Shown here piece after piece: positions 40,942-42,405 of a stretch of DNA of 57,661 bases. This DNA comes from Candidatus Chromulinivoraceae bacterium (GTDB lineage: Bacteria; Patescibacteriota; Saccharimonadia; Saccharimonadales; Saccharimonadaceae): assembly GCA_035478595.1 (NCBI GenBank), contig DATIJL010000007.1, forward strand, positions 1 through 57,661, given 5' to 3'. Numbering within the stretch: the first letter of the stretch is position 1; each line of letters starts with the position of its first letter. Below the pieces are notes generated by a model, which was not told the origin of the DNA, did no database searches, and saw only the letters and a program-made list of their open reading frames with translations. Both the position numbers and the translations under genes were made by a program.

Positions 40942-41017
40942 CGGGGTGTGGCGCAGTTGGTAGCGCGCGCGGTTTGGGACCGTGAGGCCGAAGGTTCGAG
41001 TCCTTTCACCCCGACCA
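40942..41017 (+). tRNA. tRNA-Pro (anticodon TGG)
   Basis: Acceptor CGGGGTG/CACCCCG, anticodon stem CGCGG/CCGTG around TTTGGGA, T-loop TTCGAGT, encoded CCA. TATAAT lies about 20 nt upstream. Confidence 0.95.
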
Positions 41018-41029
41018 AGAATTTATTCA

Positions 41030-41061
41030 ATACAGTATGCCTTGCCGCATACTGTATTTTT
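41030..41061 (+). terminator. Terminator after tRNA-Pro
   Basis: Stem ATACAGTATGC/GCATACTGTAT with loop CTTGCC and a following T run. Confidence 0.85.
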
Positions 41062-41110
41062 TATGTATGATACATTGCGTAACCATAAATAGTATGTTAA
41101 AGTATTATTT

Positions 41111-41206
41111 ATGATAGCTGTCAACATCGGTCACAATTCTCTGACCCTCGCGTCGCGAGGTTATGTTGCTAGTACTTTCTCTTTCTTTGGTTTTTTTGCT
41201 GCCTAG
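41111..41206 (+). CDS. Phe-rich leader peptide ahead of the PheRS gene
   Basis: A 31-codon frame starting ATG ATA GCT and ending TAG. Residues 22-31 read TFSFFGFFAA: five of seven consecutive residues (F23, F25, F26, F28, F29) are Phe. A hairpin with a T-run begins inside the last Phe codon. The architecture is that of an amino-acid leader peptide controlling transcription by attenuation, as in E. coli pheM upstream of pheST; the sequence itself is unrelated to PheM as I recall it. The synthetase gene follows 68 nt after the stop. Translation of this frame is inferred; there is no clear SD, and TATTAT lies only 2 nt and TATGTT 12 nt upstream of its ATG. Confidence 0.65.
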   Translation: MIAVNIGHNSLTLASRGYVASTFSFFGFFAA

Positions 41207-41220
41207 CAGCAATATTTTTC
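41196..41220 (+). promoter_or_regulatory. Attenuator hairpin overlapping the end of the leader peptide
   Basis: TTGCTGC (41196-41202), loop CTA, GCAGCAA (41206-41212), then TATTTTTC. The 5' arm overlaps the last Phe codon and the stop codon lies in the loop. A partial alternative partner of the 3' arm (TTGCT at 41165-41169) and a separate hairpin CCTCG/CGAGG (41146-41160) lie upstream. Confidence 0.6.
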
Positions 41221-41274
41221 TACACACCATTTCCAGATAACTATTATTACTCCAAGAAGAGAAAGATCTCTATT

Positions 41275-42405
41275 ATGAAAATGTACATCCAGCCTATCGG
41301 CGACGAGGCCCTAAAAACCTACCTGGCTATTCCTGACCTGACGAAATCACAAAGCCCGCATGCCATAAAAATGGTATACGAAAAGATCCTCGCTTATATT
41401 CATTCGACCCATCCACAAAGCGACGTTCAGGTGCATCGCAAGGATCCGATTGTATCCGCTAAAGATAACTACGATGCTCTACTTATCTCAAAAGATAATA
41501 TGAGCCGCTCATCAACATATACGCATTACATCGACAGAACGCACGTCCTCCGTACTCACACAAGCGCCCATTTACCCGGTATATTACGTGATCTGGCCAG
41601 TCGCAATGATTGGGATGACATCGTCATTCTCCTTCCTGGCCTCGCCTATCGCCGTGACGTCTCAGACAAGAAGCATGTCAGTGAAGTCCATATGCTTGAA
41701 ATGTGGCGCGTTGTTAAGAACGACGCGCGCGTACCTATTACGAAAAACGACCTACTTGCTGTCGTTAAGGGCATTGGAGCAACTGCAGCTCCCGGCTGGC
41801 ATCTACGAATCGAAGACTCTCCACATCCTTATACGAATCAGGGCATAGAAGTAAACGCAGTTGATGGAGATCGCGATATTGAGATACTTGAGTGTGGCCT
41901 TATTAAGGACGCTATCCTAGCAAACGCCGGCTTGGACCCTAAGATCCACTCCGGCTGGGCCCTTGGCATGGGACTTGATCGACTAGTTATGACTTTAAAA
42001 GACATCCCCGACGTTCGCTATCTTCGTTCAAACAATCTTCGAATCTCTGAACAAATGACTAATCTTGACCCGTACATAGAGATCTCTAATCAGCCTGCCA
42101 TAAGGCGCGACATGTCCTATAGCGTACCGCAAAACTACGTAGAAGAAGATATTAGCGCAGGTATTCGAGAGGCTTTAAAAGATAAGATAGATACGCTCGA
42201 AGAGGTAGAAATACTAAACGAAGCACCATATAACTCGCTTCCGCCTATTGTCCGCGAGCGGCTCGGTTGTCAACCTGATCAGAAAAATGTATTAGTACGC
42301 GTTACACTTCGACACCTTGAGCGAAGCATAACAAACATGGAGGCGAACGAAATCTACGAACAAATCTATAGAAGTGTTAACAAGGGTAATGCTGGCTATC
42401 TTTAG
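41275..42405 (+). CDS. Single-chain phenylalanyl-tRNA synthetase-like enzyme with FDX-ACB tail
   Basis: This 376-residue class II synthetase has motif 2 region HTSAHLPGILR, PGLAYRRDVSDKKHVSEVHMLEMWRV, the pocket block HPYTNQGIEV, and motif 3 GWALGMGLDRLVMTLKDIPDVRYLRSN, which is the PheRS alpha motif. From ~285 a ferredoxin-like anticodon-binding domain follows (RRDMSYSVP, KNVLVRVTLRHLERS). Bacterial PheRS is normally PheS plus a large PheT; a PheS-like core fused to FDX-ACB is the mitochondrial arrangement. The HQ-EG of motif 2 reads HMLEMW. No pheT is adjacent. The Phe-rich leader supports Phe specificity. Whether a second PheRS exists elsewhere is unknown. Confidence 0.8.
   Translation: MKMYIQPIGDEALKTYLAIPDLTKSQSPHAIKMVYEKILAYIHSTHPQSDVQVHRKDPIVSAKDNYDALLISKDNMSRSSTYTHYIDRTHVLRTHTSAHLPGILRDLASRNDWDDIVILLPGLAYRRDVSDKKHVSEVHMLEMWRVVKNDARVPITKNDLLAVVKGIGATAAPGWHLRIEDSPHPYTNQGIEVNAVDGDRDIEILECGLIKDAILANAGLDPKIHSGWALGMGLDRLVMTLKDIPDVRYLRSNNLRISEQMTNLDPYIEISNQPAIRRDMSYSVPQNYVEEDISAGIREALKDKIDTLEEVEILNEAPYNSLPPIVRERLGCQPDQKNVLVRVTLRHLERSITNMEANEIYEQIYRSVNKGNAGYL

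Follow-up and report, generated by a model that had tools for sequence, protein, structure and literature searches.

A short frame that encodes a run of Phe codons, and that runs into a hairpin holding its own stop codon, precedes srmL, the gene of a PheS-related ligase, in the window (the whole stretch of 57,661 nucleotides analyzed, from contig DATIJL010000007.1 of Candidatus Chromulinivoraceae bacterium). The element probably senses how much Phe-tRNA(Phe) is available and, by ribosome-mediated attenuation, controls srmL, the gene of an auxiliary PheRS-like ligase. Comparative evidence strongly backs Phe-codon attenuation: in the sequences compared, the Phe leader, its hairpin, and their link to SrmL and pheA are conserved, which suggests that srmL is switched on when charged phenylalanine tRNA is short. 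As to how this is done, we tentatively put forward a compact class of Saccharibacteria attenuator, leaderless and antiterminator-free, that would act by hairpin occlusion together with unmasking of a Shine-Dalgarno sequence, with SrmL as an auxiliary Phe-tRNA-responsive ligase backing up or protecting the housekeeping PheRS.

The Phe leader and its conservation

The 31-codon frame with five Phe codons in seven, reported in a preliminary description made from the letters alone, was recovered to the base, as was the gap of 68 nt between its stop codon, ending at 41206, and the srmL start at 41275 (Table 1). The peptide ends FSFFGFFAA, with Phe at positions 23, 25, 26, 28 and 29. When small ORFs of 8-60 aa were counted on both strands of the whole window, this was the single one of 1539 with at least five Phe in seven codons. 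The 7-bp hairpin said to overlap the end of the leader, with the stop in its loop, is likewise present at 41196-41212 (TTGCTGC-CTA-GCAGCAA) and is followed by the T-rich tract TATTTTT. The final two T of the last Phe codon (41195-41197) belong to the 5' arm; the stop codon TAG (41204-41206) has its TA in the loop and opens the 3' arm with its G.

Table 1. Features of the srmL leader region, with positions in the window
Feature	Position	Strand	Remarks
Predicted promoter	41075-41103	+	-35 TTGCGT 41075-41080, 17-nt spacer, -10 TAAAGT 41098-41103
Leader ORF MIAVNIGHNSLTLASRGYVASTFSFFGFFAA	41111-41206	+	31 codons; intact homologous ORFs in L004, L007, L008, L009, L010, L043
Helix P1	41117-41173	+	41117-41120/41170-41173 and 41122-41127/41163-41168; from folds
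Phe control codons F23 S F25 F26 G F28 F29	41177-41197	+	Kept with synonymous TTT/TTC changes in five loci
Possible outer helix P4 around hairpin	41188-41229	+	UGGU 41188-41191 with ACCA 41226-41229
7-bp hairpin with stop codon, and T-rich tract	41196-41219	+	Terminator-like; weak T-tract
srmL Shine-Dalgarno region (CCAAGAAGAGAAAG)	41252-41265	+	Complementary to Phe run
srmL, PheS-related mystery ligase, 376 aa	41275-42405	+	Class II catalytic core and FDX-ACB domain

Lying directly downstream of a tRNA-Pro gene (40942-41017) and a terminator-like hairpin (41029-41058), the leader seems to form a unit of its own. A tRNA occupies the same place 5' of the leader in L008. The predicted promoter ends 7 nt 5' of the leader ATG and is a weak match when taken alone (p 0.35). 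In relatives, the 17-nt spacer recurs with better hexamers, TTGTAA-17-TATAAT in L010 and L007, TTGACA-17-TACTAT in L008, TTGTAA-17-TATGAT in L009 and TTGTAA-17-TATTGT in L041, and the distance from the -10 hexamer to the leader start codon is 6-8 nt. This recurrent spacing suggests that transcription probably starts at the leader ATG, or one to two bases from it, giving a leaderless mRNA. By the same token, a transcription start downstream of 41206, which the preliminary description had named as evidence against its proposal, is not indicated.

The comparison covered 11 distinct Patescibacteria SrmL loci, with the window as L001, and a Phe leader with a hairpin was found in ten. The SrmL proteins of the other nine leader-bearing loci are 55-76% identical to that of the window. 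At least three Phe in nine codons occur in nine of the leaders; in L040, the remaining one, there is FF plus F. The sole exception is L011, from another class, which has no clear leader. The window type, in which the Phe run leads into a stop-holding hairpin, precedes SrmL in L001, L010/L005, L007, L008, L009, L004 and L043. Its peptides end VNFSFFGFFAA in L010/L005, VNFFFFGFFAA in L007, NSFFFGFFAA in L008, NSFFFGIFAA in L009, SISFCSTFNFAA in L004 and SSTFFFAL in L043, where the hairpin has a different sequence (TGCCCTCTAGGGCA). In L041 (MKTCSHNLFFNFILNPFRG), L040 (VIYQVQNQAVFFTSSTHGGLANFTR) and L006 (ending DAVFFFGNFIQAASPRT), a separate terminator lies downstream of the Phe leader. As the preliminary description had anticipated, frame, Phe run and hairpin are kept in relatives, with drift in the middle of the peptide; the Phe codons themselves change synonymously. 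No leader of this kind precedes housekeeping pheS in the same genomes (0 of 9 loci). Between the Phe leader and srmL, L006/L042 and L043 carry a small T/P/S-rich ORF of ~70-80 aa.

A covariance model built from six leaders and run on 343 Saccharimonadia genomes matched five SrmL leaders (E <= 1.3e-16) and, more weakly, two further sites (5e-4 and 4e-3), each directly before a prephenate dehydratase gene as assigned by PF00800; its matches were confined to the upstream regions of these two kinds of gene. The two prephenate dehydratase leaders encode MIKSSKTSLTSSNSFYFSFFAA and MIKSSNTALISSHSFAFAFFAA, ending SFYFSFFAA and SFAFAFFAA, and their stop codons lie within TGCTGC(C/T)TAAGCAGCA. Thus three Phe leaders of Saccharibacteria precede prephenate dehydratase genes: L079 and L080 are of the window type, and L085 is classical, a textbook leader (MHYIVSNFFAFTNPS) with a terminator 5' of the chorismate mutase-prephenate dehydratase gene (pheA). 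Among the other prephenate dehydratase genes examined in the family, the majority have no leader. A classical Phe attenuator, MLANAIKNFTNFFFSPVV with a terminator, also lies ~190 to 20 nt upstream of a single-chain PheRS gene (L021, G500:C5). Together with the conservation before SrmL, the classical Phe attenuators before srmL elsewhere support the earlier proposal that the Phe-codon leader controls the gene downstream. In Rfam searches, the window gave tRNAs only, with no riboswitch, T-box or Phe-leader family above the gathering score, and the relatives' leaders gave no match.

SrmL, the product of the downstream gene

SrmL scores 400.8 bits against NCBIfam NF051887, above the curated cut-off of 300, and falls below the cut-offs for pheS (90.8 of 237 bits), pheS_mito (146.6 of 258 bits) and pylS. 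In all 13 SrmL proteins compared, His replaces the first Phe (F258) of the FPF/FPY pocket, and ECG stands where PheRS has its G(C/S)G (GCG) segment. We take the Phe pocket of PheRS to consist of F258/F260 and the LGxG segment, in T. thermophilus numbering. The arginines of class II motifs 2 and 3 are retained despite the altered pocket, so that SrmL probably adenylates some substrate. The genome of the window (1.14 Mb in 19 contigs) has an ordinary pheS and a pheT on another contig. This full pair excludes SrmL as the only PheRS of the cell. The preliminary description, which had seen the logic of pheM-pheST in front of a single-chain PheRS, was therefore correct as to the likeness of the gene to PheRS and mistaken as to its being the PheRS of this genome: the target is SrmL, and the standard pheS is without such a leader. 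SrmL may instead be a stand-in for, or a partner of, a compromised PheRS.

The distribution of srmL is rare and patchy, with 5 of 394 genomes in the family and 9 of 393 in the class. The gene is also found on Glutamicibacter and Azotobacter plasmids, and a Corynebacterium plasmid has a partial relative; no SrmL was found on the viral contigs searched. The srmL leader of the Azotobacter plasmid (L045, 7801-7960) encodes MMNNRSHRFSRPWVRSDQDRAARA and has a strong terminator; that of the Glutamicibacter plasmid (L044, 7841-7980) encodes MSWQQRFSSPRPGNGRGVLDVRL. Each has just one Phe codon, and RFSxP is common to both. These single-Phe leaders, and the want of a clear leader in L011, speak against the attenuator reading. 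Additional pheS copies (H8, H9, H15, H17-H20), one of them accompanied by pheT, are annotated on plasmids of Klebsiella pneumoniae, Enterococcus faecium, Bacteroides and Anoxybacillus, and are possibly auxiliary PheRS genes.

Many other Patescibacteria families seem, from their sequences, to be without a full-length pheT. Fourteen tested genomes of other families, G500 included, gave no full-length pheT match and have a mitochondrial-like single-chain PheS+FDX-ACB, whose FPYT pocket is kept in the seven aligned. This protein, encoded at loci L012-L039 (for example G212:C12:16843-18351, G345:C8:189043-190522 and G470:C30:25296-26826), looks like a monomeric bacterial PheRS. At several of these loci, a separate ORF of ~135 aa that matches PheT positions 40-155 lies directly upstream.

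Leader folding and the possible modes of control

Every leader was folded with a ribosome footprint at each codon. In L040 (QAVFFTSSTHGG), L041 (NLFFNFILNPFRG) and L085, the terminator is abolished when the ribosome has its A site at the FF/F codons and is back once it has passed, and L021 folds alike. With the ribosome at the stop codon, the terminator is free in L041, L085 and L021 and covered in L040. In this model, Phe shortage would mean expression for the leaders of classical geometry, which is the expected sign. Switching by the ribosome between mutually exclusive antiterminator and terminator was seen in these four loci only. The terminator of L006 is present at all ribosome positions, so L006 gives no support for a switch.

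The window class behaves otherwise. Its hairpin is blocked only from F26/F28 onward, the stop codon included, and a ribosome at F23 or F25 leaves it free at any footprint edge from +11 to +17. The footprint folds gave no conserved antiterminator in this class. The one candidate, a segment before the Phe run that pairs with the 3' terminator arm, appears in the window and L010 only, at some early ribosome positions, and is absent in L004, L007, L008, L009 and L043. The terminator of the window has its stem, but its T-tract is weak: the T-tract discriminant of the class is -15.6 to +18.8, against 31.6-40.7 for three classical leaders.

Two further helices are predicted in the leader RNA. P1 closes two inner hairpins (41129-41146 and 41147-41159), and its 3' strand terminates just 5' of the Phe run. 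In seven leaders of differing sequence, its stability exceeds that of dinucleotide shuffles (z -0.96 to -3.96), with a combined z of -6.8 over the seven, which are related and hence not independent. As a guess, P1 might pause RNA polymerase until the ribosome arrives. The possible P4 is kept in five close loci, with one compensatory change (UGGC/GCCA in L008), and its pairs are also present in single-leader folds.

Folds of the full 5' leader pair the Phe run with the srmL Shine-Dalgarno sequence in the window, L007 and L008. In the window, the probability that the Shine-Dalgarno core is unpaired is 0.01 with no ribosome, 0.49 with a ribosome in S21-F29 and 0.02 with one at the stop codon; in L007, the values are 0.03, about 0.6 in the Phe run, and 0.11. 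The pairing is absent in L004, L079 and L080. It is not significantly better in matched than in mismatched loci (p 0.06 by permutation). With synonymous-codon controls, p<0.05 was reached in the window only (0.047). The matched-pair value led us to reject the pairing as proven; it is retained as a part of the explanation. Given a pairing that is not significantly specific and is missing in three loci, a mixed mechanism is favored, in which control may act on transcription, translation or both.

The sequence of events in the mixed mechanism would be as follows. A sigma-70-type promoter would give an mRNA that begins at the leader ATG and is probably leaderless. When Phe-tRNA is plentiful, the ribosome would clear the Phe codons, stop inside the hairpin and leave; the hairpin would then form and cause partial termination, and in the transcripts that escape, the Phe run would pair with the srmL Shine-Dalgarno sequence, keeping the output of SrmL low. 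Under Phe-tRNA shortage, a ribosome lingering at the last Phe codons would cover the hairpin arm, and a ribosome anywhere in the Phe run would free the Shine-Dalgarno sequence, allowing SrmL to be made. With such unmasking, all five Phe codons would count, and with the expected sign.

A purely transcriptional control, in which the 5' arm of an intrinsic terminator is hidden under a ribosome that stands on the last Phe codons, with neither an antiterminator nor a translational arm, is possible but doubtful. Direct occlusion, in place of a separate antiterminator or alongside one, had been proposed in the preliminary description; the geometry allows it from the last two or three Phe codons, and as an account of the element it is incomplete. 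It is favored by the stop-in-loop hairpin kept in seven SrmL and two prephenate dehydratase leaders, by the blocking of the hairpin in all nine only from the last one to three Phe codons onwards, and by the lack of conservation of the alternative pairing seen at early ribosome positions in the window. The T-tracts, however, are weak, and a ribosome stalled at the first Phe codons leaves the hairpin free: with the terminator free at F23/F25 and covered at the stop codon, occlusion alone could even give the opposite sign, since a fast ribosome would cover the hairpin and a lagging one would not. Judging from known footprints, the ribosome would hardly be past about F28 when RNA polymerase stands at the T-tract, which would make speed and sign delicate.

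A purely translational control, in which the Phe run masks the Shine-Dalgarno sequence, a held ribosome unmasks it and the hairpin merely joins the strands, is unlikely. The long pairing in the window, L007 and L008, and its opening whichever codon of the Phe run the ribosome occupies, speak for it, and the proposed pairing of a run of Leu codons with the leuA Shine-Dalgarno sequence offers a precedent (PMC1262725). Phe runs, however, are always pyrimidine-rich and Shine-Dalgarno sequences purine-rich, a bias to be set beside the borderline tests and the three loci that lack the pairing.

That the leader acts through its product, be it a small peptide with a function or an arrest peptide of specific sequence (FFGFFAA), and not as a Phe-codon sensor, is very improbable. 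The five closest leaders do share G27 and the terminal AA, but the AA is fixed by the hairpin, the other leaders have no more in common than their Phe runs, whose contexts are unrelated (STFFFAL, NLFFNFILNPFRG, AVFFTSS, SFYFSFFAA), and the target genes are Phe-linked. An accidentally open, Phe-rich frame in a U-rich spacer is hardly credible and already refuted by the comparison: Phe codons are common in U-rich intergenic DNA, but the leader is one in 1539 small ORFs, occurs at 10 of 11 SrmL loci against 0 of 9 pheS controls, and is matched by the covariance model only before srmL and prephenate dehydratase genes.

Significance and comparison with known systems

That the target is SrmL and not PheRS makes the element more interesting, because the leader offers a strong hint to the function of SrmL. 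A conserved Phe leader is a direct clue that SrmL is expressed according to how far tRNA(Phe) is charged, and through it the function of the protein becomes testable. The comparison also points to patescibacteria of about 1 Mb retaining amino-acid-sensing attenuators, some of them compact and without an antiterminator. Literature searches on SrmL and on leader-peptide attenuation in Saccharibacteria returned no relevant paper.

The element resembles pheM-pheST and pheL-pheA of gammaproteobacteria in its Phe-codon leader peptide, its hairpin and its Phe-linked target. L040, L041 and L085 share the pheM/pheL geometry, with a terminator blocked at the Phe codons and formed after their passage. 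The window class differs in its stop codon inside the hairpin, its weak T-tract, its probably leaderless mRNA and the absence of a conserved antiterminator, and the target in the window is SrmL instead of the pheST of the pheM-pheST attenuator.

By analogy, the closest physiological counterpart is the auxiliary TrpRS gene of Streptomyces, which, as Vecchione and Sello reportedly described in 2010 (reference 57 of PMC4787780), is under ribosome-mediated attenuation. The enzyme there is a known antibiotic-resistant TrpRS. Both systems have a second synthetase-like gene besides the housekeeping one, preceded by a leader with cognate codons. The activity of the Streptomyces enzyme is known, whereas SrmL is a mystery ligase.

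For the unusual geometry, the nearest parallels come from Actinobacteria. In their ilvB leaders, the regulatory codons overlap the terminator hairpin, and the mode of regulation was called unclear (Seliverstov et al. 2005, PMC1262725); the codon-terminator overlap is common to these and the window, whereas the branched-chain codons and the target differ. In the LEU element of leuA, the run of regulatory codons may pair with the downstream Shine-Dalgarno sequence, and a pseudoknot is described (PMC1262725). A like Shine-Dalgarno pairing may occur in the window, with Phe codons and a stop-carrying hairpin in place of the Leu codons and pseudoknot. Both features, the overlap of codons with a terminator and the pairing of a codon run with a Shine-Dalgarno sequence, are thus already suspected in Actinobacteria (PMC1262725).
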